Below are positions 3,497 to 45,085 of a stretch of DNA of 64,000 nt, in pieces. Source of the stretch: Halocafeteria seosinensis (Eukaryota > Sar > Bigyra > Bicosoecida); assembly GCA_001687465.1 (NCBI GenBank), contig LVLI01000549.1:1-64000 (forward strand). Direction: 5' to 3'. The position numbers were made by a program, and so were the translations under genes. The notes beneath the pieces are model-generated. The model was not told the DNA's origin. It made no database searches and saw only the letters and a program-made list of their open reading frames with translations. How positions within the stretch are numbered: position 1 is the first letter of the stretch; the number at the start of each line of letters is the position of its first letter.

Positions 3497-6400
3497 CTAA
3501 TTACTATAATTTTTATAGTGACCAAGTGCCAACGTGTTAACCCCATCATCCAACACCCACCGTTTTGTGTCAATTCCATCCAAAGCACGCTTATAACTTG
3601 TTTGTTGATAAACATTAAATTTTTCGCTTGATATTTTTGTTATTTTTACGCTTTTGCTCATGTCTTCATCATTATCAGGAATCGCACATTTTAGAAAGTT
3701 TAAAAAACTCAAGTCTTTCTTTACTACTGATTTTTTCACGCCTTTGGCTTTTATCTCCTCTTCATCTTCTTCCGTTATAAAACTATACATTTTAGGTTTC
3801 AGCCCGACAAATTCACGCATAATTTTGCCTTCACATTCATCTTTCATATATCCTAATTGTTTTTTATTTTCAATACTATATAACTCTGATTCTTTTGGGT
3901 AATTTGATAAATCAAACTCGTTCTTGAATTCTTTTATATCCTCATATAAATCTTGGGTTTTAATCTCATAACATAAACTATCGGTATCAGTAAACATTAA
4001 ATTAGCATTATTCCCATATCTTGGCTTCATAATATCATAGTTAAATCGGTACATTGTTATTTTGCTTAATTCCAAAATAGCACTACCAACCGCAATAGGC
4101 TTTGTAAATTTCACACTTTCTTTTGTGTTATCTATTGCCACTAAATAATCATCTTCTATTATATTACTTGATTTAAAAGTTGGTTTATTTACATATTTTT
4201 GTGCTCTTTCTTTACTTGTGCAAAAATGTAAATTTGAATAGTTTCGAACGTTCTCCATTGTCTTACCGAAACAACTGTTACACATTAATTTGAATAAATT
4301 CTTTTCAAATTCGTCTTTTGCTAAACTTCTCAATTTTGTGTTTTTCTCTATGTATGGTTTCATAAAAGACTCCTGACGAAATTTTAAAACATTATGAACC
4401 TTTTTCAATTTCATACCATGATCCAAGTAAAATTGTAAATTATTGATATGACAAACATAATTGACCTTATCATATAAATTTGGTATTAATTTGGTTTGTT
4501 TGTCTTCTGGTTTTTTCCCAAGTTTCTCCGCTGTTTGTTTCATAAACTCCGAAAATTCTCCGGTTGTGTTTTCTGGTGCTAAGGGGTAATCACTATGAAA
4601 GTCATGGATTTCTTTGGGATATTCTAAGTCTACTTCCACAAATGCCCCATATTTCCCATTTGTATCCCATTCTTTTATATATTCAGTTGTATATTTCTCA
4701 ACATTATCCCATTCATATTCTCCAACTGGTAATTTTTGGATCATAGCCAACCCATATAAGTTATTAGCATCAACATAAAATAAATATTTTGTTTCTTGAT
4801 TTGGGTCGTAATCTTTCATATATTTATTATTTGCTTTAGCGTGCCTTTTGCTTATCATGCTCATGCCTCCACGTTTTGCACGCTCTGCAAATAATAACAT
4901 ATCATATTGATCATTATGAAATAATTCAATTTGATGTTGTTTAGTTTTTAACATTGCTTCCCATCCAAGTCCAGGAACTCCCAAATACCAACAAGGCTCA
5001 AGTTGGTAATTTAGTTTAATAACTTTTCTAAACTCGTCAAATACATCTGCTAATAATAAAACATCAGTTTTTAAATATAATTCATGATATTCTTTAAATT
5101 CTTTACAATTAAATTTTTCCCAAACTTTCAAAGCATGTTTATAATCTTCTTCGCTTATTTCCTCTTCTGTTAATTCATTATAAAATTGTCCCTTTTCTGG
5201 TAATTCATTAACATAAAAACGGTTTTCATCTCCATTCATAAACCTATACGGGTATACTCCTTTTTGTGTTAACAGTTTTATTCGTTCTTCTGTACACTTA
5301 TTAAAATGCTTTCTTAAATGATTAAACTTATCTTCTTTCTTAGTTTTCAAATTCTCAACTAAACTTTCTAATGATCCCGATACAAATGCACAAGAGTCCA
5401 TAAATCTCAACTTAGACTTTCTTGGTCCAAAACTCTTAAACTTTTCTGAATTTTCCGGAATTCCTTCCAATTCATTCTCGCTATTTCTTGCCACTTCTCT
5501 AATTAAAAACTTACTATCGTAACCGGTCATATTATGAAATAAAACGGGAATTTTCCAACCCTTATTAAAGTTCTTATTTAAATTACAAATATTATGTGAA
5601 GCTCCTCTAAATTCTCCTGTTAAATGACAATGGTCTCTAACCTTGTCTAAGTTCCCGTTTTTATCTACTCCAAATTTTTCACCACAAATATAACATTTAT
5701 CAGTATTCCAGAATTTTTTATTTTCTTCTTTTGTCAAGTTCATTTCCTCATATGTCTCATACATTTTTCTCTTCATACTTTTCTCCTTCTCAAACAACCA
5801 ATTAATATATTTTCTTATACAACTTTCTTTTTCATCATTATAAAATATTCTTAATTCCCCATTAAATTCCTCAAAGCAACTAGACACATACCCACAAATT
5901 GAATTGGGTACATGTTTATTTGTATAACCCTTATTTTTGGGATCTTCATAAGGTACTAAATTACTTTCTAAATCACTATATATAACAAATGGTAGTTCTA
6001 GTTCTTTATGATAATTTTTGAAATTTAAATAATGTTCTCCTTTTTGTGGTAACTCCGGCCTTGCTGATTCATTGTTAAAACATCCCATTTTTATATGATT
6101 TTCGTAACCTTCTTTAGTTGTTCTTTTCTCTAAACAATTGGGACAATAATAAGCTGATCTACTTCCATGTTGATTTAATACAGTACCTAATTTTTGAATA
6201 CGACACCAATGAGATATTTTCTTGCTCTCATCTGTATAAAGTAACATATTTATTTGATGTTCTGCGTCTTGCTTTTTTGATATTCTTAGCGGACTTAATT
6301 CCTTTAAATATAACCTATCTTCATGAAGCTTTTCTTCTTTTGGGTTTCTTTTCTTTTTTTCATCCTGCTTACCAAATTTAGGCATAAACGCGTTTATGCT

Positions 6401-7579
6401 TAACTGTGGGTTTTGTTTTTCTATTTTTGCTAATTCACTCACTGTTATCGGCATTGAAATACCTTTTAAACTTAATTCATTTTCAAATTTCTTATATTTG
6501 CTTACTCTTTGTTGATTTTTCTTTATTTCTGGGTGAATTGCTGAAATAATTACCCACTTCCCACAATCTCCCTCTTTTGTTCCACTCATGTTTATAATTC
6601 CCGGATTTTTCTCCAAACATTCCGGAAGTTTAACGTCTCCTTTTCCTTCAAGTGGGTTAAATTTAGTTGTTTTAATTTGCAAATTCTCAATTTTTGCTAT
6701 TACCCAACCAGATCCCCTTGACTCAAAATTATTAAAAGCTTGGATAATTTTGTTATATGACTCTTGTAACTTTAATTCAACTTCTTCTTTATTATTTATT
6801 TCAGGTGCTGAACTTTCTTTTGTACTAAAAAACCTAAAAGCTAAAGTTTCATTCGTCTCATCCGTTGGTTGTCTAAGCTTTGCTTCTAATGCTACTTGTA
6901 ATTTTATGCTTGACTTTTCTACATCCTTTTTAATTATTTCTTTCGCTTTTGGTTCTACAGTACTTAGAAACCTGTTTATATCTCTCATTTTTGGATCTGT
7001 TTTAATTGTATAAACTTGAATAATATCACTAAACTTTTCTCCTTCTTCCAAATTCACTTTAAATTGTTGTTCTTCTTCTTTCTCTGGTACTTCCTTCAGT
7101 TGCTCTTTATTTAATTTTTGTTTCTTTTCTATTCTTATTCTCGCTATTTCCCTTTTAATTTCTCTATTTTTGCTTGTTAGTGGTATCGTTGCAAATCCTT
7201 CCTTTTTCAACTCTTTTAGTTCTTTCTTTAATTCTTCCCTTCGTTTTGGTGGTTTAAATCCGCTTCTCTTTAAACTTCTAAATTTATTTGCGTTCCTTGC
7301 TAAACTTTCCTTAATGTCTGCTTTGCTTCTCGCTTTTGTGTCTCCAATACCATGTTGCAAAAAATTATTGTGCAATTGCTTTATTTGTTGAAAATTATTA
7401 GTTAATAAAACGTTTTTCGTCTCTCTTGGCATTTGTCTAAATAATTCCCTAGCCGTGTTTAATTGNTGTTCTAGTTGTTTATTGCTTAAAACTCTCAAAG
7501 AACCGCTTATAAGACCCAAGTTTTTAAATTCTCTAGCTTCAGTAATCAGTTGTCTATTTATTCCTAAACCTTCACTCAT
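3497..7579 (-). CDS. polB: Protein-primed type B DNA polymerase with endonuclease VII-like zinc module
   Basis: This 1360-aa protein starts at the ATG at 7579. The N-terminal ~350 residues are basic and coiled. A Cys/His finger (YYCPNCLEKRTTKEGYENH) lies near residue 490. Exonuclease motif I (YSDLES) is near residue 536. A zinc module like recombination endonuclease VII follows near 627 (CYICGEKFG, then RDHCHLTGEFRG and HNICNLN), and exonuclease motif II (FHNMTGYDSKFLI) comes after it. An Exo III-like segment (TDVLLLADVFDEF) precedes polymerase motif A (FYVDANNLYG, ~933), motif B (NSCFGKTMEN, ~1100) and motif C (FTDTDSLCYE, ~1198). All catalytic acids seem intact, so it is probably active in replicating the element. 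One ambiguous base at 7465 does not disrupt the frame. Confidence 0.9.
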   Translation of the reverse strand: MSEGLGINRQLITEAREFKNLGLISGSLRVLSNKQLEXQLNTARELFRQMPRETKNVLLTNNFQQIKQLHNNFLQHGIGDTKARSKADIKESLARNANKFRSLKRSGFKPPKRREELKKELKELKKEGFATIPLTSKNREIKREIARIRIEKKQKLNKEQLKEVPEKEEEQQFKVNLEEGEKFSDIIQVYTIKTDPKMRDINRFLSTVEPKAKEIIKKDVEKSSIKLQVALEAKLRQPTDETNETLAFRFFSTKESSAPEINNKEEVELKLQESYNKIIQAFNNFESRGSGWVIAKIENLQIKTTKFNPLEGKGDVKLPECLEKNPGIINMSGTKEGDCGKWVIISAIHPEIKKNQQRVSKYKKFENELSLKGISMPITVSELAKIEKQNPQLSINAFMPKFGKQDEKKKRNPKEEKLHEDRLYLKELSPLRISKKQDAEHQINMLLYTDESKKISHWCRIQKLGTVLNQHGSRSAYYCPNCLEKRTTKEGYENHIKMGCFNNESARPELPQKGEHYLNFKNYHKELELPFVIYSDLESNLVPYEDPKNKGYTNKHVPNSICGYVSSCFEEFNGELRIFYNDEKESCIRKYINWLFEKEKSMKRKMYETYEEMNLTKEENKKFWNTDKCYICGEKFGVDKNGNLDKVRDHCHLTGEFRGASHNICNLNKNFNKGWKIPVLFHNMTGYDSKFLIREVARNSENELEGIPENSEKFKSFGPRKSKLRFMDSCAFVSGSLESLVENLKTKKEDKFNHLRKHFNKCTEERIKLLTQKGVYPYRFMNGDENRFYVNELPEKGQFYNELTEEEISEEDYKHALKVWEKFNCKEFKEYHELYLKTDVLLLADVFDEFRKVIKLNYQLEPCWYLGVPGLGWEAMLKTKQHQIELFHNDQYDMLLFAERAKRGGMSMISKRHAKANNKYMKDYDPNQETKYLFYVDANNLYGLAMIQKLPVGEYEWDNVEKYTTEYIKEWDTNGKYGAFVEVDLEYPKEIHDFHSDYPLAPENTTGEFSEFMKQTAEKLGKKPEDKQTKLIPNLYDKVNYVCHINNLQFYLDHGMKLKKVHNVLKFRQESFMKPYIEKNTKLRSLAKDEFEKNLFKLMCNSCFGKTMENVRNYSNLHFCTSKERAQKYVNKPTFKSSNIIEDDYLVAIDNTKESVKFTKPIAVGSAILELSKITMYRFNYDIMKPRYGNNANLMFTDTDSLCYEIKTQDLYEDIKEFKNEFDLSNYPKESELYSIENKKQLGYMKDECEGKIMREFVGLKPKMYSFITEEDEEEIKAKGVKKSVVKKDLSFLNFLKCAIPDNDEDMSKSVKITKISSEKFNVYQQTSYKRALDGIDTKRWVLDDGVNTLALGHYKNYSN

Positions 7580-11897: not shown

Positions 11898-13557
11898 TTA
11901 GCTTCTACTTTTCGCGAAACACCGGAAGGGAAACGCACTCCGCAAAGAGTTCCAGCACCCCTTGCTGCGTTGGGGCCCCGGTGGCAGATGGGCTGATTGT
12001 TCTCGTTCCACAGTATCTGTGAGTTGAGCGAATTGATCCAGCGAGACGGCGAAGGTATAGCACCAATTTCCACTGCATTCTTTAATAGTAACCGGGGCTC
12101 CACTCGGACAATGTCGTGGGACGTCGACCAAAGGAAACGTTTTTGACTTCCGCCAACCGCTCCGGTCACGTACATTAATGTGGAGATTACTCAGGCTCTC
12201 ACATTCACGGGTTACTTTACACGTTGGACATTGGACGCTCGGCAGCGCCAATTTGAGCTCAACCAAGGCATAGCTTTGAATGGAATCTACGGACAGTGTC
12301 GGCGACTCGCAGCCTTTTTCAATGTGTCGTGCGAACCACGGATGACTGCGCACGTCATCAATCCCTATCCTCTGGGCAGGATTAACGGTGAGCATTTGTC
12401 TAACCAAGTCAATGACATCTCGGCTCCACGAGGACGGCCAGACAAAGGAGACATTGAAGCTTCGAGCTCTTATGTACCCGTCTCGAATTTCTGCTAGATT
12501 GACTAATCCTGTACAACCATGTTGAGAATTCGATACAGCAATTTCATGGACCAACCCAATCATGCTTTCTTCCTGTTTTGTAGTGCGTAGAAACGCAACA
12601 AAGTATGGGTCGGAAAGACTAGCCTTGTGAAACGGGAGAGTACCAGAGAGCATCGCAAAGAGGATGACTCCTAGACTCCAAGTATCAGCGTCGAAGGCAT
12701 CCCACGCATATGCCGGCAGAGCTTCCGCTGCTCCAGGATTATACTGCGTAAGAACCTCTGGAGCTACATATTGATCAGTTCCTGTAATGTGGGTTGTTAG
12801 AGCTTGCTCACTACCAACCGCAGTAATAGTAGCTGCCCCCCAGTCGGCAACTCGCAAGGTGCCTTCTGTAGTGTACAAGATATTCCCAGGTTTCAAGTCT
12901 CCATGAGCCACTCCTTGGGCATGCGCAAATGAGATAGCTGCACATTTTCAGGGATGGGCTAATAACAAACCAATCACTTTTCGTAGACGACGTTGTACTA
13001 ATTTGCTTACCATTCAGCATCCCTTGCATTTGCTTCCGACTAACCTCCTCATCGAATCTCCCCGTTTTCTTGAGAGTATCAAGCAAGGTCCTGCAGCAGA
13101 GTTCCATTGGAAGGATAATATGATCTTCTTGAAGTTTCTCGGCTTGATGGATAGGAAGCTTTGAAAAATCGCAGTGACCTTTCGCCCGAAACGGACTCCC
13201 TACCCTGAGGACGCTACTACAATGCGAGCCCAGACGGCGATACTGCAGAGGCGCTAGAACGGATAGACCAGTATCTGAGGGACTATCTCATAGACAGCAC
13301 CATATACATACGGCTTGAACTTCTACAATGTCATCAATGCATTGATTGGTGCGCAGGAAGACTTTGGCTGCAAATTGAAGGTCGGGATATTCTGTGCAAC
13401 CTGCCAAGAATACACAACCTTGCGACCCAGATCCCAATTGTCGCTGCGAAAGCATGAAAGGATGAAATATGTCAGCCTTAGGAACTGCCTAACGAATCTT
13501 GCTGCTAGCACTTTCTCTGACCTTCAATACCACTGACTGAGGTTGCAGGCTTTCCAT
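11898..13557 (-). CDS. Ser/Thr protein kinase 2 of the tandem cluster
   Basis: Four exons, complement of 11898-12937, 13011-13242, 13312-13443 and 13522-13557, give 479 aa. Exon 2 (132 nt) and exon 3 (232 nt) are exactly as long as in kinase 1. The glycine loop is LGSGSQGCVF and the lysine motif is FAAKVF. The catalytic loop is HGDLKPGN and the metal-binding segment is ADWGAA. YVAPEVL and a C-lobe ending HPWFARH follow. The tail contains a VELKLA motif shared with the paralogues and ends in a Cys/aromatic segment (GCWNSLRSAFPFRC). The kinase is probably active, with substrate unknown. The first intron uses GTCAGA, less canonical than the others. Confidence 0.8.
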
Positions 13558-14129
13558 TACTTCCACGTCATTCTTGAAGCTCAACTACACTGTATGGTTC
13601 TCACGGCCATTAGATCATCCGTGCATTCTGTTAGCTCATCTGAGGCACTTATGCAAGAATGTAGAACCGAACGAGCCGAACTAGCTTTAGAGTCTATAGT
13701 TCACATTCGCATTCATCGAGGCTGTTCTACCAAAGTTGGCTGTTCTCGGCTCGGATCTCGCTACTGCAAGCCTAGATAGTGCTGGTTCGCGCCTGGGAGA
13801 ACGGAACTTGTTGAATGAGAGAAGTGCGACGGGATACCTTATATTGTCAGTCTTACACGCGCTGTCTGCAATGACAATCACAAACGACCAGTAAGTAGTG
13901 TTCAGAACCCTGCGCTATCGCCCGTGACCTTCAGAACAGAGATTACGGAAACTCCGCCCGAATGTACGCACAGAAGCCCTCTGGCAGTTCGGATCTGAGC
14001 TCCTTCATGTAATATACACTTCCCGCATGCCCCGCCGATGAGCTTAGCATGAGAACCCAAGGCGAATCAATGTTGCCATGTGTCCTGTACTCCGCCGGAG
14101 CGTAGCAATTAATTTCTGCTTTTGGAGTA
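13558..14129. other. Spacer between kinases 2 and 3
   Basis: I find no gene, RNA or repeat that I can support here. Confidence 0.5.
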
Positions 14130-15804
14130 TCAGCAACCGCACAACAACGGAAACGAGAGCTTTTCCTTTAGCGTTTTCCAGCACCCACTTTTTGTTTTTG
14201 CTGTATCCCTGTCAGTAGTCTGACACCGGATGTCTGCCGGACCCCCTGTTGAACCACCAGCGAACTCCGAATAGCTGGAGTACCAATCTCTATACCTTGC
14301 ACAACTAAATTGTCGAATACCGGTAGTTTGGCGCCTCTTTGAAATGTTGGCCAAAGGGAAGGTCTTAGAAAGGATTGGTAGAGTGCTCTTCGCCCGTTCA
14401 ACCCCGACCGCTCCGCGTTTGCCAAGATTACTTTTGGCATGTCGATGCAGGTCATGTTCCTCTTGATCTTCATTTCGAGCAAGTTTGAGCTCAGCTAGAG
14501 TGACGCCTCGTACGGGTAAACTTGAAGACTGGAAAAACTCCGGAACATTCTTGATGTAACCATGGTGACCAGTTAGCCAGGGATGCTGACGGATACCCCA
14601 AACGGTTATTCTGTAAGCTGGGTCCACTGTCAGCATTTGGCGTATCAAATCGACAGCATTGCGACTCCATGAAGAGGGCCACGTGAATTTAATATTATAG
14701 CCAAGAGCTTTGCTGTACGCTCTTCGGAGTTCTTCCAAATCGACCAATCCGCTTCCTCCACAGTGCTCGTTTGCCCAGGCAATTTCATTCACAAGGTCAA
14801 ACATACTCTCCTCTTGTTGTGTAGCCTGGAGGAACGCTACATAATGAGGATCCTCCAGACTAGCCTTGTGGAATGGCAGTGTGCCCTGCAGCATGGCGAA
14901 GAGCAAGATCCCCAAACTCCACGTGTCGGCATCAAAAGCATCCCATTCATACTGAGGGACGAAGCTCGTTGCTCCGCGTTTGTACTGAGTGAATATTTCC
15001 GGTGCCACATACTGGTCCGTTCCTGCAATCATAGCTGTTAGAGCTTGTTCGTCCCCCACCTCTGTAATAGTTGCAGCTCCCCAGTCGCTCAGGCGTATGG
15101 ACCCGTCCGCAGCAAAGAGAACGTTTCCCGGTTTTATGTCACCGTGGGATACTCCTTTACTGTGGGCGTATGAAATGCCTGCAACAGGTAGTTTCGTTTC
15201 TAATGTCTCTCTCCCTTTCTCTCTCTGTAGTCCCTAAAGAGATAGAAACCAAACATACCTTCCAAAATGCTTTGCATGCACCTTCGACTGGAATTTTCGC
15301 TAAACCCTCCTGTTTTCCGTATTGTCCCGAGTAAGTCTTCTTTACAGAGTTCCATAGGAAGTGCTATTTCGTGCCCTTTTAGTTTCCTCTTTTGCTGCTC
15401 TGGCAACGCTGAGAAATCACATCTACTGCCTGCCACAAATGGGAGCCCTACCTTTAAGATATGGGAGCATTGCAAGCCGAGGCGAGAGTACTGCAGCTCA
15501 TTGTCAATTTAAAGGCTGCAAGTGTAGTAGTACCCTGTTCGATGTGCATCGACAAATGCACTTACAGCTTGTAGTTCCCGTATGTCCGAGACTGAATCCT
15601 CGTTGAATACGTATAGTTTTACCGCAAATTCGAAGTCTGGGTGGTTCTTCGCGGCCGCCAAGAATACGCAGCCTTCTGAACCGCCTCCGAGTTGGTGCTG
15701 TACTAGTCCCAAAAGTTCGTTCAGTTCCACAATTGCGCTCACGAGAAATCGCTTACCTTTATCACGATGGTGTTTGACGATGTGCTGTCCCTTGAGCCAC
15801 TCAT
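14130..15804 (-). CDS. Ser/Thr protein kinase 3 of the tandem cluster
   Basis: Four exons, complement of 14130-15178, 15259-15490, 15566-15697 and 15757-15804, give 486 aa. The intron positions and phases match kinases 1 and 2. Key motifs are LGGGSEGCVF, FAVKLY, HGDIKPGN, SDWGAA and YVAPEIF, then a C-lobe ending HPWL. The tail has AELKLA and ends SGCWKTLKEKLSFPLLCGC. The Cys at positions near the extreme C-terminus could be lipidated, suggesting membrane attachment; this is inference from composition. The conserved gene structure shows recent tandem duplication. Confidence 0.8.
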
Positions 15805-16470
15805 CCCAGCAGGAAGTTGTCAAACTGAGACTCTCCCACGATCTGATTAGCCTCTACGCGTGTGCGTTCACTTAATTTCAATGTTTGACTGCTTTCTCAG
15901 AATACGGCTTGGAAGACACCCATCAGCTGCTGTACTTGGAATACCCTACAGTGCAGTGTACTACCTTAAATGCCAGGGTACTGCCTCTGCATACGTATGT
16001 ACATCGCAAGATCGAGCTAGCATGGACTTCGTCGGGTCCAACGAATTTGTCAACAGTACCAATCCAACTGCGCTGTTTTGCTATGCAGTGTTCTCTCTCT
16101 ATGAGACTCTCTGCATCATGTTTTGTGGGCCGGAACACAAAACTCCGAGACCGAGACTCAGAGTCCACACGAGTATTACTATCGTAATTACGACCTGTTT
16201 GGAGTGTTCTCAGTTATGTATTTCGCGTATTGTGTATGAGCAGTTCCCTACGTTTAAGAGCATGTCCGACAACGTGCCGTAGATGCGTGTTCGACCCTGA
16301 ATTTCGTGGTGAATTCCGCGGTGTGTGGTGCGACAAACATGTACATCTACCGGTAGGTACACTGAGCACTGAGGAACAATTATTGCAAAGACGTTGTTGG
16401 AATGATTGCCATTGGTAAAAATTGGAACTCGTACAATGCGCTGGCGTGTGACATTTTCGTGTGGAACTAG
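15805..16470. other. Spacer between kinases 3 and 4
   Basis: No coding region or RNA gene is supported in this 666-bp stretch. Confidence 0.5.
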
Positions 16471-18185
16471 CTAAATTGTACGGCAACACTTGGATGAAAA
16501 CAGCCGTAGCAGGAAAGAGCAACACCCTGTGCCATTTGTAGATGTTTGTTTGGCTTGCGTTGGTCGCCGCGACTGTTCGGTCAGTACATCTTCGTAGTCT
16601 TCGATATACTGTCTGCTAAAGTTGAAGGGGAAGCTATTCGTTGCAATATCGCCCGGGTTAACACTGCTACTACGACTTGGTGACGAGAAGGGAAGTGTCC
16701 TATTTCGAGAAGGGCAAATGTCCAAGGATGAAGATTGATGTCTAGCACTAGGCATAGAAATAGCTTCCACCGCACTGCTCTTACAGCTGTCTGCAATACT
16801 GGTTCGCATGTATCCCATCAACAATTTCAGCTCAGCCAAGAATCTAGGGTTGTTAGGGCCCGTGGGCGCTCCAGTAACATTTTCAGTACTGAAGGTCCTG
16901 AAAAACCAAGGATGAGCGTAGACCTGCTCCGTACTGATTCGATCGTCAGAATCTACCTTAAGCATTCGCTCAATCAAGTCCTTAAGTTCTCGGCTAAACC
17001 AGCTTGGCCACTTAAAGTCTACTTGACGTCGTTGGGCAACAGCATATCGTTTTCGGTGTTCTGTTAAGTCGATCAGAGCACGTCGGCCTGCTTGATAGTT
17101 CGTCTCAACGATGCTATGAACCAATCGAGACATACTGTCTTCCTGTTCAGTTGCTTCAAGGAAACCCAGAAAATACGGATCTTCAGTACTGGCTTTATGG
17201 AAGGGTATTGTACCGGTCATCATTGCAAACGCTAAGACGCCTAAACTCCATATGTCAGCAGCAAATGCATCCCACTCGTATTCAGCGGTATCATTCCCCA
17301 ATTGGGGGCTGTACTGCAGAAGGATTTCCGGTGCTGCGTACTGCTCTGTCCCAGCAACGCTATTAGTCAGTGCCTGTGAGGAACCTTGTGGAGCAATAGT
17401 TGCAGAGCCCCAGTCGCATACTCGGATATTATTGTCCATTGCGAAGAGAACATTTCCGGGTTTGATGTCTCCGTGTGCGACACCGCGATGGTGCGCATAT
17501 TTCACGGCTGAGCGATAGTTTACAGCTGCCACAATACCGGTAACAAAAACTAAAGGATCGAAAGAAGCTTACCTTCGACAATTTCCAGCATATAGTACTG
17601 CCCGTACGACTCCTCGAATTTTCCTTCAGTGCAAAGTTTATGGAGTATCTCTTCGCGGCAAAGTTCCATCGGCAGCGCAACCAGTTCTTGAGACCCGTCC
17701 CGTAGTGGCGATCGATCTTCCTCTGACATTTCTGAAAAGTCTAACTCTTGTAGCGAATTAAATGGGTTCCATACCTTAAGAACATACGGACAATCCCATT
17801 GCAGCCGATAGTACTGGAGTAAGACGTACAGGAAGCTCCAACAACTTTGGGAGTGGTACTGGGGACCGACAGGCCCTTGACACTTACGGCTCTGATTTCC
17901 GTCAAATCGTTTGGGTGACAGTCCTTTCGGAAAATCTTGACAGCGTACTCTTCTTCCGGCTTTCCTGGGATGTGGGCTAGAAACACATGGCCTTGAGATC
18001 CTCCTCCAATGCGACACTGCACCAGCAATATTCCGCAATCAACCATTTCTCACTTTGCACTCAAGCCGAAACGGCATTTCCCAGGTGAAATGAGCACAAT
18101 GTTTCAGCGAGTTATCGTGCAATACATGATTGGCTATTCTTACACGAAGTACCGCAGAATATCGATATTGGGGTTCCAATGCCAT
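16471..18185 (-). CDS. Ser/Thr protein kinase 4 of the tandem cluster
   Basis: Four exons, complement of 16471-17507, 17573-17813, 17888-18016 and 18144-18185, give 482 aa. This is the most diverged paralogue: exon 3 is 241 nt rather than 232, exon 2 is 129 nt rather than 132, and the first intron is longer (127 nt). Motifs are IGGGSQGHVF, YAVKIF, HGDIKPGN, CDWGSA and YAAPEIL, with a C-lobe ending HPWFF. The tail has AELKLL, a Ser-rich linker, and ends GCCSFLLRLFSSKCCRTI, again Cys-rich and hydrophobic. The first exon (14 codons) was chosen because it ends SAVLR just before the glycine loop, mirroring the IVLK ends of the other paralogues. Confidence 0.75.
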
Positions 18186-20226: not shown

Positions 20227-23200
20227 TTAGTTGGGAGTTTTTTGGGAGTCTGAGTTTGCCCCCTGGGATTTAGCAATAGCAGACGACCCAGTCCGGCGAT
20301 TAGATGTAATACGATGCATATCCTCTTCAAGCTGTTCCAATGAGCGTCGCACTCGCATTTCGACTGCACCATGAGCGAAATCGCATCTAATTCCTCTAGC
20401 ACAATATCCACCATTTGTGCGAAACCAATCCTGACATAATTTAGTTTTGTACCGCGCGTTACTTATGTTAGCTCCACCTTTATACTTTGTATTTTGCGCC
20501 CTAATTTTTTCATGCGCACTGATAACGGGAATGATTTCAAGATCTCCTTCGTCTTTGAGAGTGCTGAAAACCGGATTACTTCCATGAGGTATTCCATGAT
20601 GACGTAGCTTTTCCTCATCAATAAGATCATTCAACCTACTTCGAGGTAAGACTCGACCGTCCTCTCCCTCCTTGTATATCATTGGGTTGTCCGTAGCGGC
20701 ACGAAGACTGATACGATGACAAGTCTCCTGCCAGGATCCATAATCCAAGTACCAAGGGTTTGATTCTGTTCCAGTTTTCTCCATAGGTCGCCCTAGCTGA
20801 TCTTCGTTCGATGTGGGGGATGCTATTCGTGCCGTCACTACTCGCCGTACCTTCTTTAAATATCGACCACATGTGTTCTTGCCTAGCATCTCCTGAAAAT
20901 GAGGCTCGTGAGCAAACATTTCCAGTGCAACCTCATAGCAAGCTATCAAAAGTCTAGGAAAGCGTTCAGGAGCCAAGAAAAATGGAACCAACGCCACGTA
21001 GGAATCACTACCGATGACGTTTGAACGAACATGTTGCGGAATGTCACGATAGTGGTTGCGTTTGTTGCGGAAGACACGCAAGCAGTCCAAGACGGAACCA
21101 AAGTTATATCGACGGTATCGTGACATTTCCGTAAGGAATTCGGAAGGTAGCCTCTTGTCCCACGATGTACCAACTACGATGGAAGCTTTGGATTCGATAT
21201 ACCGGACGGCAGGGCTGTCTTCTGCTTCGATCTCTAGGCGATCCGAAACATCCTGTAAAAACTGCGAGCGTTTCTCGTCATCCCAAAAGAATGGGTGTTC
21301 AAGGATTTCTGATGTACGTGGCCGCTTTCTTGGATTCGAATGCAGCATCTGCTTCAACAAATGCTGCAATTCAGGAATGTGATCTAGCCGCCGTAGGTCC
21401 GCCTTGCCTGATAGGATCCGTCCTTCCCGCTCAAATGGCACCCCAAATGGATGTTCTCCAGCATCCACAACATAATAAATGATGCATCCCAGTGACCATA
21501 CATCAACTAACCGGCTGCTCCGCGATGGCTGCACAGCACCTTCTCCTTCACCCTCGCTGGTATCGTCAGAAGGAACATCCTCAGAAGCTTCTTCTTCGGT
21601 TCTTGACCCGCTACGGTCCACAAAGTTCCGCCAGTTTCCACCCATGCTGTTGTATAGTTGCCTCAATATTTCCGGCGCTTGCCAGCCTACCGTCCCGGGG
21701 GCGTTTCCCGTTATGCTGTGGTTATTTCCAGGAGCTGATATACTCTCCTCTTCGCTGCTACTATCCGATAGAGCAGCGTCAGCAAATTTGTTCTCTGCCA
21801 TAGTGTTATTTTGACGAGCCTTTTTTTGTAGCCTTTTCTCCGTCTTCTGGGCTTTCGCGAGGCGCTGTTTATTTTCATCCATATAGGACCCAGTGGACGA
21901 CGCGTTCAGAGCCGATTGCGCACCAGAAGCAGTGGTTTCAAGGAGAAGCTTTCCCAACCCCATGTCACTAATTTTTGGTACCCATCGAAGACCGAGTTGG
22001 TGAAACTCTCTGTGGGTACCGAAAGAAACCTGACTCTTTTCATCTGCATTCTCATCATCGGTATTTGTCTTCTGCTTCAAAAGGATGTTCTGTGGCTTGA
22101 GATCACGGTGTACAATACGCTGACAATGCAGATGATGAACCCCTGACACCAGAGCTTTCAAGAAGGAACGCGTGTATCCACTAGGAACAGCGATAGAACG
22201 ATTTCCGCTACCGCTACCACTATACGAATTTCTGGACGCATGACGACGATGAGCACTCTTCAAGATAGCAGAATCAAGCGAGCAATCACACTGTTCAAGA
22301 GCTAAGTGGACAAAATCGCCCCATTCTTTCCTATTAAAATAGCGAACTACGTTAGGATGCCCATCACTCTTTATAAGGAGGTTAATCTCTCGTTCTGCTG
22401 TCTTGAAAAAACTCTTGAGCATCTTTTTCACCGCAACCGGACGTCCTTCCAACAGCCCAGCGTAGACGACGGTGCCATGGGAGCCATATCCCATAATGTG
22501 ATCACTTATTCCCAATTCATCGATAAACTGGTACTGACGACCATTCACATTCTTGTACACCGGGATTACTGGGTTATTCTGGACATTGGTATCGGAAGAA
22601 GCAGCTCCCGGAGAGTCATCGGGGGTGCCTTGCCGTTCAGTATCCTCACCCACAGGACGAGGATGGTCAACTTTGATGCTATCCTTCTCTTTCAACAAAT
22701 CGTCTTTCCTTTTGAACGCACTGTATTTCTGGATATTGCGAATGGTGCGGTAAGGTATGTAGAGGCAGACACCAACTGCAATGATAGAGCTAATCCGGAC
22801 TAACGGGTTCTCATCAGCTTCTACTTTCCCGTAGTAACCAAGTCCTAGTACCCACTTAATTGAAGACCAGAATGACACTTCGGATATCCCTTCGAAATTC
22901 TCGACCGCGCGCATCTCACTTTCAAGCGGTGGAAACCAGTTCCTTGCGGAGAGATATGCGTACCCCATTGTTGTCCACACGCCAATGTTTGAAAGCGGCC
23001 AAGGAGACTTCAGCATGTACCGTAGCAAAGATGGCACAGAAACGTGTGCCAGGTATATGTTACTTCTTTCTTTCGATGCCTCATCCATGAGTTCTTTGGC
23101 TGCTTGAAGGGCTGATCGACCGATTTGAATATGATGCAAGATGCCAGAGCTAGTAACTGCCGCTGTCAACAAAGGCGCTAAATCCGAACGTCTCTGCAAA

Positions 23201-25827
23201 CCCCGTTCGTCTTCCATGTTCCACACAATGACAAAAGGGACGAGCGTCTTTTTTCCTGGCTCTTGATCGCCGGCTTTCGACTGTCCTGAGTTCTCAGCTT
23301 GCCTTCCTAAATACTCGCTGGGCATCAAATCCCTCCATCCCTGTGTAACGTCATCTTTGGATGCATCAAGCGGTTCGGTTTTATCACGAAGCTTGGAAAA
23401 TCCGTCAGCAAACGAATGCCTCGTAGCTGCAGGATATGCGGCTCCAGAGTTGTCTGTCTCGACCTGTGCGCCTTCATTTTCCCAAATACGACCTCCAGCA
23501 GTATAGCCCAGCAAGCCTGAGGCTGTGTCAGGTTGCGGCAGTTGCAGACGCTCCTCCGGAGCAGCGGCGATATGATTCGCTGAGCTATGTCCATCCTGTC
23601 TCTTCTCATCGGGAGCAACACTATCAATCAAAACAGCATGTACCCCATCTTCCTCTCCTTTCTTGCGACCTGTTCGTGGTACCTCATTGAGATCGTAGAC
23701 GTCCGTTTCATTACGTGGATCATAGCAAATGGTTTCATTGATATTCCAATTGGACACCTTGCACTTGGCGTCCGATTCACTTTCATAAGGTCTGGAAACA
23801 GCATTCTTATCGCGAACACTGACAGCACTAAAATAGTCATCAATGATACGGGATAACTGGGTTTTACTTAACGGCTTAATATTGGTAGCAAACCGTTGCC
23901 CATTTCCGAAACTGCCAATGTATACCTGAGCCGGTAGTTGAGGTTTTCCACTGCTTTCTGTTAAAGCTGCATGGAGACGATCAGGGGGAGGCAATGACAC
24001 AAAAGAAGGGGAGGAATCATCGGGCCAAACTTCTTCAAAGTGAACACGCATTGCTGTGTAGCTTCGAGGAATTGACCCATCATTCGTCTCTCCAAGACGC
24101 GATCCGACACGGAACATCGCCAGTACGGGTCCTCCCAGCGAGTTCTGCCACAACCATTCACCGTTGTCTTCTCGCAAAGCCATGAGGTGGCCTTGTACGG
24201 TGCTTGTGAGAACAATTTCGAATTGGCGGGCGCGAGGAAACTTTCTTCGGTGTTTCCTCGCCCTTCGAGGGTGAGCATGATGCATTTCCTCTAACGTACC
24301 ATCGCTGTCAAAACTGCGAGTAACATAACCAAGGAGGAAATTTACATATATAAGTCTCGCTACTGAGGATTTAATCGATGGGTAACAGTTATACATAACG
24401 AACACACAAGAGAGACTCGTCAGAATACCTTCTCACGATTGGTTCGCGAGCGGCGATTTCAACACAACGCTTCCTTTGCAGAGAAGGCAAGAGGCACTGC
24501 CCAGACTTCCCTAAGGAAATGTTACTAATATTCGGCCTTTTGTTTTAACATCACTCGAATCTCAAGTGAGCTCAAACATTCGCAACTTACTTTTCGACAG
24601 GCGGTGTCGTACCACCAGCGATTGTAACCTGGGGTGTGAGCACGTCTGCTACCGTGAAGTTCCAGATTTCTCGATTGCTTACACCGCGGTTTCCAGTCTG
24701 GAATGCTCTGACATTGTGGTGTTTCTGGGTCAGCCATACAAGGTCCTGCGCTTCTCGGCAACGATAGCTACTCCTGTGGGTACTTTCATCGTTGTCAAAA
24801 CATAGATCACTGTCAGTTCCGGTTGGGGGGAAGACAGCCTTTAGGGCGCCAGTTTTCAGATCGACCCCGAACATGGTGGCTGAAGTAGCCCCCGTCACCA
24901 CAGTCTTATCCCCATCGGAAAACGGGCTCCGTTCAACAAGTTGCTGTACAGTGTTCGGTAGTCGCTGGATACTGTAGTAGTCGTAGGCAAAGATACTGCC
25001 ATCAATAGCCGGAACCATCATGGCCGTGCCGATCGAAGAGTTCTTCTGATCCACTTGGAACGAGCTCAGAAAGGGCTGATCCACGTTGTACGTCCACTGC
25101 ATTCACGGTTCGGACATACGAATCACCATACGACATGAGGGTGATTGACAACTTTCGTACAGGACGTACCAAACGCTTCCCGTCCTTCGCTTGGATCGCA
25201 TGGTAGCGACCGTCCACTGTCGCAGCGATCAAGATGTCGTCGCTGCACGCGAACACAAAAGTTCCACACACACCATATCACGTCAATGAAAGTAGTCGAA
25301 GGAAAAAGCAACGAAATGGCACTGTGGCCTTGTATACTCGATGGAATCATCATGCATAAACAACACGTGTCTTACCTTCTCGCAGGTCCCACTTTGACAC
25401 CATGTCCTTCCCTCTCTTGTTCATTACCATCTCCATCTGGGTAATGGGTTTGAGAAGCATCATGGGACGAAATATCGGCGTTTAAAGTGGTGGCAGGGTC
25501 CAAAGTTGATCCTTGAAGTGGCGATGGCCGAGCCGCAAACGCAAATGCTGGAGTTCCTACAGACCCTGTAAACGAACACAAAGGACGGCGATAACGATTA
25601 GGAGGTCCGTTCCATCCGGGTAAGCCACCAGTTGCTATGAAGATGCCACATAGCGCCCATACAAGGGTCGAAGTGATCAGAAAACGGGCTCCTCCACTTC
25701 GTGAAGCAGTGCTTTTGCCCGTGATTTCAACCCTTTCACCGTTCCCCGTCTCCATTCTGAGGCTTGTTATCGTAGAAACACCACAATTACTACCATTCCG
25801 TCTGGATATATCGGATACATCCCACAT
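20227..25827 (-). CDS. IRE1: IRE1 ER-stress sensor kinase/RNase with C-terminal CCCH zinc finger
   Basis: Exons are complement of 20227-24313, 24591-25096, 25170-25242 and 25376-25827 (~1705 aa), in phase throughout; the 277-nt first-listed intron is the least certain. An N-terminal hydrophobic segment is followed by a luminal beta-propeller-like domain (IAATVDGRYHAI; GSIFAYDYYSIQ; WLWQNSLGGPVLAMF). A membrane span lies near residues 848-868. The kinase has VAVKKM (~972), HRDLKPQN (~1080), SDMGLGK in place of DFG (~1128), an acidic Ser-rich activation insert and GTVGWQAPE. The KEN RNase domain (~1358-1485) keeps the RNKRNHY motif carrying the catalytic Asn and His. The protein continues ~220 residues to a YKTKLC-led C-x10-C-x5-C-x3-H finger (~1635-1657). 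Canonical IRE1 proteins stop after the KEN domain, so this is an RNase joined to a probable RNA-binding finger. The KEN domain rules out PERK. Confidence 0.9.
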
Positions 25828-31571: not shown

Positions 31572-34142
31572 ATGGTGATTGTCTGGGTACTCCCGTATTG
31601 TATCCTCTCTGCTTACCGTGTTTTGGTTGGGCTTACATTGTTCTGTGCGAGCAAAAGAAGCAGGTCTTTCTCTTTTCCAGACAGCCTCGGAGAAATGGCA
31701 AAAGGACGAGAAGTTACTGAAGTTAGTCCCATCAGCAGACAACGAGATCGTAGTGGTACGGGTACCGCAACCCACAATGAGACGGAGGACGCCTCTCTAT
31801 ACAGCCTAAGGGAGAACCTATGGTATCAAGCCTTCGTTGGCGTTGGTTTCGTCGTTGGTCTTGGTGCTACCTTATGGAATTTAGATGAAGAGAGACGACA
31901 GCAGTTTGCTTTTATCGCCGGAATATGTATTCTTATAGCAGGACTGTACCACTTCGTCATGCCTAATTTAACTCTGAGTAAGACAAGCAAACGCTGACAT
32001 TCAAAACCGGGTTACTGTAGGAACTATTCTTTCTGGTCTGTATGGCTTTGCTTGCAGGAGGGAGTGACTCAGGCCCGAACTCGACACAAGGTAGGCCACT
32101 TACATGATGTGGGAATGCATGTCACAGTTGAAAATATAATAATAAAAACTACCGCAGAAGTGTACTTTACCAGTGCCGATGTTCAGTCTTTAAAGAAACG
32201 TCTGCGGGAGAATATTCTACTACGCCGAGCCGCAGCACTTAGTGAAGAAACATACAAGTTCCAAGGAGTTTGCGACGAGAGTCATGTGGAGAGTAAATTG
32301 CATGATATGATACCAAACGGAAACTTCGTCGACAAAAGCAGCATATACCGAGAGTGTATGGAGCGGTCGCCTGAGAAGACTCTAGGAGTACAGCTGGCAA
32401 CATTTCCCCGTCGATTTGGGAAGACGACCTGGCTTTCCTTTATGGACCTCGCAGTAGGTCCCAAACTTTGGAAGAAGCCACTGGAAACAAGGAAGAGATT
32501 TTATCGTTCGCTAGCTACCCTAAGAGAAGGAAAATGGTTTTTGCGATCCCCGGTAAGACCCGTTGTCAGGATCAGCATGGCAAGTATCGATTCAGGAGAG
32601 AGTATGCAGCTAATTATCAAAGGCATATTCGAAAAGTACGGAATACGATCCGCGGTGGGTCTTCCTTTCGGTGGAGGATACCTGCAACGGGCTTTTCAAG
32701 CGCTTGAAGGGATCTACGAACAAGCGATCAACGAATTAGATGTGGAGGAGCCCGATTTGGATGTTCGAACACATGCTTCATCGTCGGTGTTAGTTCTTGT
32801 AGATGAGTATGACAAACCTTACCGGGACTATGAAACTGAAACAAAGGCTAAGGAAAAGAATACTGTTTCAAATATTATCCGCTGCCAGGACGTTTTTTTT
32901 GCATGCTTAAAAGACCTTCTCGAGAGCAGTACGATTTGGGGTGTGTGCATTGTGTCATTGATTCCTCTTGGAAAAGCTGGTCTTTCGGTGCTCCAATGCA
33001 CTCAGGCGTTGACGTTTCGAAAGAAGTTCCATAATCTATTTGGTATCGCTGAAACGGAGCTTTTGTGTGCTCTAGAGGAACAAGCAAGTCAGTCAATGTC
33101 TTTGACCAACGTTCTCGAGTGGGCCGCAACTCCGGAGGTAGCTATCGTCGAACCCAACAGCTCGTGGGTGCAAAAGCGGGAGCAGCTCTTAACTTACCTC
33201 CGCTCAAAAGTCAATGGCTTTTGCATGGCCCTTGATTTGACCGAGCGACTACAGCCGCTCTACAGTCCACTTGACGTAGTGAAGATGCTGTTGCACGTGC
33301 AAGAGTCTAAACCCGAGTTCCCGGAGCTGCAATGGCTTTATAATTCTCGAAGCCCGTATGCCCACCTTCTGAAGAAGATTGGGCGCGAGGGTTTCCGAAA
33401 CGCTATGATAGGTGGTATTGTGAATGCTACGTACTTTCAGCAACGTCAGGCACTATCAGAATACTATGGAAATGATTTCGGGGCGCATTGTTCTCTGCTT
33501 TTCTTTTTGGGCTTACTACAGGTCTCTTGGACTGATGGTAGGAAAGTGGCGCTTGTACCTTCCGACGATGGCCGAAGTTTGTTAGCAAAGATAGAGCTTC
33601 TGGATTGGACCTTTCCGAGACTGAACGCATTACCCGAGAGACAAGTGGACCGCTTCCGTAAAAATCCTACCACCTTGATACAGAAAATTGTGGAATGCAT
33701 TTTGAAGAGTGCCAGGAGAGTAGGCATAAATTACAGGGATCAGACCAACGAACCGCGGGAAATTCCTTTCCAGGGTGCGGCATACCATTGCTTGTACGAC
33801 GTGCTGTACCACCGGCGGATATCTCTGTCAATAGAGACCTATATCAGGAATGATCGAAAGAGAATCGATATAAAATGCGTCGTGGATAGTCTTCTTACTG
33901 TCATCATAGAATTGAAGATGCTCAGAACGAAAAATTTCAGCAAGATGAAGCTCAGAGAGGCTTTAAACCAAGCAATTGATTATACGCGTCGCTTGAATCA
34001 AACTGCTGATAACTGCTTTCTTATCGGGGCTGTGATGCACTGGCATACGTCGAAAGTCTACGTCTCCCACAGACAGTTTGCGGAGGGAATCGACGATGAG
34101 CCTCACTATGACTCATACAACGTTTTTGGTCTACATAAATAA
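31572..34142 (+). CDS. AAA-ATPase-like/PD-(D/E)XK protein with membrane-spanning N-terminus
   Basis: Exons 31572-31977, 32058-32090 and 32158-34142 join in phase (807 aa) through introns of 80 and 67 nt, the local norm. The N-terminus is hydrophobic (VIVWVLPYCILSAYRVLVGL), and two further spans lie at AFVGVGFVVGLGATLW and FAFIAGICILIAGLYHFV. The ATPase part has a Walker A-like PRRFGKTT and a Walker B VLVLVDEYDKP, as in the AAA-ATPase_like (PF09820) family. The C-terminus has RIDIKCVVDSLLTVIIELKM, matching the D...ExK core of the nuclease domain that usually accompanies this ATPase. Such proteins are common in bacteria and some protists with unknown function. The start could instead be the ATG at 31695. 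If the introns are not real, the ATPase part would begin at the ATG at 32115. Confidence 0.7.
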
Positions 34143-43969: not shown

Positions 43970-45085
43970 TTATGCAAACGCAAATTTGGCTTTGTGATTG
44001 TATTGCGAAAGACATTCACGGACACCAGAATGAGCTCCCATTTGTTGATTATCCTTTGTTTCTTGAAGATCTGCTGTATATGCAGTGTGGTCGTCAATGA
44101 GTGACAAAGTGATAGAACCTCCTTCGCCTTCTTGCTGGAGAAAACGATCCTCGGAGCGAATTGCGTGATTGAGCAATGCACGCCGCTTATCAGCGCTGCT
44201 GAAAACAGGGTTCGCCTCTTTGAGCTTTATCCCCACCAAGGATTTGAGTGGCTTAGGATGTCCTTCGTTTCGAAGTTCCTCCATTATATACCGAAGAAGC
44301 GTACAGTCGTCTTCCTGGACCTCGGTGGCTGTGAGCACCGAACTAGCCGCTGTCGGAGAAGAAGCACCCTCACGAGCTTCTCCTCGTGACACTGAAGGAC
44401 GAGGAAAGCAGTCACCGAGAACATCCGTCTCCCACCGTAGACAAGAATCCGCTTGCATGTGTAGTACCGACTGCATTCTACCGGGATGGACCAACACACT
44501 GCCACAGTTTGTATCTGTACGAAGCACGGAAAACATGTATGAATAGTCCTTGTCTCCTGTGACAAAGCAGATCCGAGCACCATCCGGGTGTTTTGCTGCG
44601 AATGCCATAGCATCTACCAGGATCATCTTATCCGCCACTTCTTTTCTGCGAAGATGGGGGGTATCAATAAGGTGGCACCCCGACAGCTGCATCTCGCTTC
44701 GTTTCTCTGGTGGAAGAGTGCCCTCTTCTACAGACAAATACGCCCGGAAAGACATGAGGTAGCCAAATGCTGAAAGCTTCGATTTCAATGCATTGGCAGC
44801 ATCTTTCCCCGAGATTGAAGTTGGAATTTGCACGTTCTCTACGTCCCAGAATATCGCCAGAGGTTGCTTGGCTCGCCTTCGTTGTTCCTCAAAAAACATC
44901 GAAGCAGTATGTACGATATCACGAGCGGCTAATCGAGGGATATCTTCGCACATGAGGTCCTCAACAATGTCTGCTGGTGGCCGCAGAAAAGTCTCGCGGC
45001 ACATATTCAGCTTCTTCAGCGTCTCCTTATGCCTGCACACAGGCAATATGTCTGTAGAATTAAGCCAATCATCGAAACTCTCCAT
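43970..45085 (-). CDS. NYN-domain putative RNase with possible LOTUS/OST-HTH domain
   Basis: This 371-aa single-exon protein starts at the ATG at 45085. Residues about 75-215 form a NYN (PIN-like) nuclease domain: AIFWDVENVQIP gives the first acidic residue, KMILVDAMAFA the second, and ICFVTGDKDYSYM the third. This matches MARF1/limkain-b1 type proteins. The later part (LRYIMEELRNEGHPKPLKSLVGIKLKEANP, then a Phe-rich end) resembles a winged-helix OST-HTH/LOTUS domain, though less certainly. A basic linker with Ser and Thr lies between. The protein probably degrades or edits RNA, target unknown. Confidence 0.75.
   Translation of the reverse strand: MESFDDWLNSTDILPVCRHKETLKKLNMCRETFLRPPADIVEDLMCEDIPRLAARDIVHTASMFFEEQRRRAKQPLAIFWDVENVQIPTSISGKDAANALKSKLSAFGYLMSFRAYLSVEEGTLPPEKRSEMQLSGCHLIDTPHLRRKEVADKMILVDAMAFAAKHPDGARICFVTGDKDYSYMFSVLRTDTNCGSVLVHPGRMQSVLHMQADSCLRWETDVLGDCFPRPSVSRGEAREGASSPTAASSVLTATEVQEDDCTLLRYIMEELRNEGHPKPLKSLVGIKLKEANPVFSSADKRRALLNHAIRSEDRFLQQEGEGGSITLSLIDDHTAYTADLQETKDNQQMGAHSGVRECLSQYNHKAKFAFA

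Follow-up and report, generated by a model that had tools for sequence, protein, structure and literature searches.

IRE1 works as an oligomer whose RNase end is cytosolic, and it usually ends at the KEN domain, although this ending is not strictly defining. To our knowledge, how IRE1 picks the mRNAs that it degrades is not settled. Zinc fingers of the tristetraprolin (TTP) type, for their part, bind single-stranded RNA. A combination of these elements has appeared once in a domain survey, where a table row describes the KEN domain as 'Fused to S/T/Y-Kinase, along with ankyrin repeats, CCCH in some' (Anantharaman et al. 2013, PMC3710099); the part of that text available to us gives no species, domain order or function for the KEN-kinase-CCCH proteins, which may not be membrane IRE1s. 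Since the combination stands in that row, the novelty of the gene described here is limited, and we regard it as a new member of a known but little-explored architecture. A literature search, mostly outside subscription journals, found no functional study of an IRE1 with a CCCH or other zinc finger in algae or stramenopiles. In Chlamydomonas, IRE1 splices bZIP1 (PMC11062448), and the passages that describe this make no mention of a 'zinc finger'.

The gene studied here lies on the minus strand of a 64,000-nucleotide stretch of the Halocafeteria seosinensis genome (contig LVLI01000549.1, positions 1 to 64,000), referred to below as the window. Like known IRE1 proteins (ERN1, yeast Ire1 and those of plants and algae), its predicted product has a luminal domain, a membrane helix, a kinase and a KEN domain with the catalytic residues kept; unlike them, it carries a long insert in the kinase and, beyond KEN, a linker of 145 residues, a CCCH finger and a tail. 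With TTP/ZFP36 it shares the YKTKL lead-in, the CCCH finger, the FAHG end and the best structure matches, and it differs from them in having one finger rather than two, a first spacing of x10 rather than x8, an Arg at the Tyr170 position and the fusion to IRE1. It resembles RNase L in joining a kinase-like domain to KEN, with a weaker structure match (4o1o, E 7.1e-14), but unlike RNase L it has a luminal domain and a membrane helix. Pfam detected no ankyrin repeats in the open frames that contain exon 1, exon 3 and the last exon.

The minus-strand frame 24405-20227 is open over 1,392 codons and represents the last exon of the IRE1 gene, on a contig whose genes are intron-bearing and eukaryotic. 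A five-exon model with four introns (25375-25243, 25169-25097, 24590-24511 and 24465-24314) yields a product of 1,720 residues free of internal stops (Table 1). An earlier splice model contained stops, and the clean frame was obtained after one more intron and a weak fourth donor were admitted. For that last intron, the donor GTATTC looks better yet leaves an in-frame stop, so GTGTTG was chosen (24465-24314); because the choice was made to avoid a stop, the junction of exons 4 and 5 is to be taken as a model and not as a result. The right end given to the feature in an earlier note on this DNA, 24313, is where the last exon begins in the gene model.

Table 1. Modelled exons and predicted domains of the IRE1 gene (positions in the window).
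Feature	Position	Strand	Remarks
Exon 1 (model)	25376..25827	-	N-terminus, hydrophobic signal/anchor segment (hydropathy); start ATG putative
Exon 2 (model)	25170..25242	-	Start of luminal domain; flanked by GT-AG introns 25375-25243 and 25169-25097
Exon 3 (model)	24591..25096	-	Luminal domain; once joined, the luminal part matches the luminal structures of PERK and IRE1
Exon 4 (model)	24466..24510	-	Luminal domain; weak donor GTGTTG, 0/4 consensus letters
Exon 5 (last)	20227..24313	-	Remaining luminal domain, membrane helix, kinase, KEN, linker, finger, tail, stop
Membrane helix	22750..22806	-	ORF aa 534-552, hydropathy peak
Kinase domain	21283..22500	-	VAVKK, HRDLKPQN, DMG, long insert
KEN RNase domain (PF06479)	20887..21267	-	Catalytic Y, R, N, H kept
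Linker, KEN to finger	20452..20886	-	145 residues; in-frame coding bias over aa 1174-1313
CCCH finger	20368..20451	-	C-x10-C-x5-C-x3-H, YKTKLC lead-in, Pfam match
C-terminal tail after finger	20230..20367	-	46 residues; open frame, codon scores

The luminal part of the modelled spliced product is of the IRE1/PERK type, and its match to PERK (4yzy, E 2.1e-14) is better than that to yeast IRE1 (2be1, E 5.4e-8). A single membrane helix, predicted by hydropathy only, separates it from the kinase part. In the last-exon frame, Pfam detects a protein kinase (Pkinase, E 7.8e-31) followed by the KEN domain (Ribonuc_2-5A, E 6.1e-30, aa 1047-1173), and the best solved-structure matches of the kinase-KEN part are IRE1 chains (2rio, E 3.1e-66). 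The motifs of an active kinase are all found, with Met in place of the Phe of DFG (SDMG at 21969-21958, minus strand), as the earlier note had read it; plant IRE1 likewise has DMG. The long insert, which lies between the two kinase matches, is serine-rich and acidic. The KEN motif RNKRNHY, also reported before, lies at 21069-21049 on the minus strand, and alignment with the 2rio chain of yeast Ire1 indicates that Y140, R153, N154 and H158, presumably the four catalytic KEN positions, are kept. A profile search of the genome (30.6 Mb, 605 contigs) returned this KEN match only. The NCBIfam scan, which uses a prokaryote library, gave kinase-like matches far under the cut-off and one BamB match, and no relative was found among the viral contigs, prokaryote contigs and plasmids scanned, a result that is uninformative on orthologues of a eukaryotic gene.

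The protein does not end at KEN, since 219 residues follow the KEN match. The earlier note had claimed a single open frame with kinase, KEN and finger, the last two about 150 residues apart, and this stands: Pfam matches were obtained for all three, the frame 24405-20227 contains no stop, and the linker is close to the proposed length. By chance, 219 codons would stay open at the local base composition with a probability of about 1.6e-6, and the two shifted frames across linker, finger and tail contain 9 and 17 stops. We also scored the region with a codon model for which 13 further frames of the window served as the training set. The linker scores 0.107 per codon in frame, and 0.041 and 0.017 once the frame is shifted, while the tail scores 0.120 versus -0.020 and -0.082; the rest of the frame, finger excepted, ranges from 0.073 to 0.163 per codon. 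The finger region itself scores 0.024 in frame against 0.189 in the +1 frame, which counts against coding there, albeit over a short stretch of 34 codons. At the level of the DNA sequence, it is confirmed that the finger belongs to the same open frame as the kinase and KEN. Structure prediction of the KEN-linker-finger part, run from the single sequence without an alignment, reached a mean pLDDT of 35.4, too low to be of use.

The single CCCH finger reads YKTKLCQDWFRTNGGYCARGIRCDFAHG (20451-20368, minus strand). It matches zf-CCCH with 26.1 bits for a cut-off of 20.5 (E 7.9e-6, aa 1319-1346); when the 70 residues of the finger region are submitted alone, the E value becomes 2.7e-7. Pfam shows no second CCCH stretch. 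Among solved structures the finger matches TIS11d best (1rgo, deposited as Butyrate response factor 2, E 1.5e-10), followed by TTP (1m9o, E 2.1e-10) and by a C3H1 protein (9y10, E 3.7e-10), with a two-residue insertion in every one of the three alignments. The finger retains its three Cys and its His together with the FAHG end and the YKTKL lead-in, so its zinc binding looks intact. The earlier note's description of an IRE1 that ends in a TTP-type finger within one open frame is supported, and the cysteine and histidine spacing is as the note gave it. What does not hold for this genome is its remark that x10 is unusually long. The genome search for CCCH domains gave at least 12 matches, and among the 12 listed the first spacing is x10 in four (L002, L008, the IRE1 finger itself as L009, and L010), x8 in four and x7 in four; the idea of an abnormal spacing was rejected. 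The IRE1 finger and the second finger of a tandem CCCH protein on contig C459 are identical at 18/28 positions; with fingers on contigs C197 and C14 the identity is 17/28 and 15/28, respectively. These three TTP-like CCCH proteins (L014, L017 and L015, respectively) have x10 and are the nearest to the IRE1 finger of the in-genome fingers compared. Since x10 is common and similar fingers occur in the genome, the spacing is usual here, and the IRE1 finger may derive from the genome's own TTP-like set.

Whether the finger would bind AU-rich RNA, as had been suggested from its type, is another matter. The alignment with 1rgo places an Arg at the position of TIS11d Tyr170, a residue that is set beside Arg17 of an adenosine-binding viral finger in PMC4051120. 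Given this Arg and the lack of a second finger, AU-rich binding is less secure than the earlier note implies, and it must be considered unproven.

The reading that we favour, with moderate confidence, is that the finger brings RNA to the RNase as a tether and selects mRNAs for decay resembling RIDD, and possibly for splicing. The protein would be an IRE1-type sensor of the ER membrane, whose luminal domain would sense misfolded protein, while its kinase and KEN domains, in the cytosol, would oligomerise to cut RNA; these three activities are taken from the known family. At the end of its linker of about 145 residues, which would give it reach, the TTP-type finger would act as an RNA tether, keeping elements of single-stranded RNA close to the RNase and so concentrating chosen mRNAs locally. 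Binding by one finger should be weak, but oligomers, by joining several fingers, could provide an avidity like that which TTP owes to its two fingers in tandem. The RNA binding of the finger, its sequence preference and its tethering role are inferred. A bolder and more tentative version is an IRE1 with its own substrate reader: oligomers formed under ER stress would read short RNA elements with several fingers at once, RIDD would be addressed by motifs in this lineage, and the TTP decay code and the unfolded-protein response would be united in one polypeptide. An IRE1 with a built-in RNA-binding finger would allow a direct test, by removing or relocating the finger, of how IRE1 chooses its targets. 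Taken as a whole, the earlier interpretation is reasonable and partly supported.

The tether supposes that the finger is present in the mature protein, and an intron could remove it, or confine it to one isoform. The earlier note had named a stop or a splice between KEN and the finger among the findings that would refute its proposal; there is no stop, but in-frame introns that take out the finger can be drawn. A count of GT..AG pairs no shorter than 50 nt gave 568 with a start between 20886 and 20370. Of these, 31 satisfy a loose filter, uncalibrated against known non-introns (donor with at least 2/4 letters, at least 7/12 pyrimidines). Fourteen of the 31 overlap the finger and five of these keep the frame, including 20462-20364, an in-frame candidate of 99 nt that would remove the finger almost exactly. 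The filter is crude, rejecting two introns of our own model (24465-24314 for its donor, 25169-25097 for its pyrimidines), and therefore the pair count neither supports an intron nor rules one out. Such pairs are common by chance, whereas the true frame alone stays open through linker, finger and tail, and a well-formed finger in frame would be hard to account for were it never translated; we judge this explanation very unlikely. It is also conceivable, though we think it improbable, that the finger is translated but serves as a structural or protein-protein module, binding for instance a factor of decay or of the translocon, and plays no part in substrate choice. CCCH fingers are able to bind proteins, and the Arg at the Tyr170 position would fit such a use, but the strong similarity to RNA-binding TTP fingers, lead-in included, argues against it.

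A narrower role would be that the finger tethers one HAC1/XBP1-like mRNA for unconventional splicing, standing in for the targeting elements of other lineages. In animals, RtcB performs the ligation step of IRE1 splicing. The genome encodes RtcB (three exon matches on contig C243, best E 1.8e-57), so splicing of a target is possible, and bZIP genes are present as well. However, no twin CNGNNGN stem-loops with a spacing of 14-60 nt and a stem of 3 or 4 were found in 11 bZIP loci (nine, then two more), in a scan of fixed stretches around the exon matches that had no positive control and may have missed some. When the spacing was extended to 400 nt, four pairs were observed versus a mean of 6.6 in shuffled sequences for stem 3, and one versus 0.82 for stem 4. 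The profile of the Trl1-type ligase (PF09511) had no match in the genome, nor in the controls, which makes this result uninformative. A dedicated splicing tether seems unlikely. One bZIP gene (L019:919-1668, minus strand) encodes a bZIP followed by a PAS domain and is aureochrome-like; this is the arrangement of the aureochromes, which are stramenopile photoreceptors. A profile search of the genome gave no match to the chlorophyll-binding family, and taken together the two observations would suggest a stramenopile that does not photosynthesise.

Finally, several neighbours of the IRE1 gene may be mentioned. Directly downstream, at least three similar Ser/Thr kinase frames (11898-18046, minus strand) apparently form a tandem family, one of them matching Pkinase with E 1.5e-34. 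The first 8,000 positions of the window are AT-rich (29% GC versus 45-48% elsewhere) and include an ORF for a type B DNA polymerase (3497-7579, minus strand; DNA_pol_B_2, E 5.8e-20), together with an Endonuclease_7 match under its cut-off; this part has the look of a mobile or viral insertion, or else of an assembly join near 8 kb. On the other side of the gene lie an AAA-ATPase_like protein (32052-34142, plus strand; PF09820, E 9.1e-8) and an NYN-domain protein (43970-45085, minus strand; E 6.7e-15), which belongs to a predicted RNase family.
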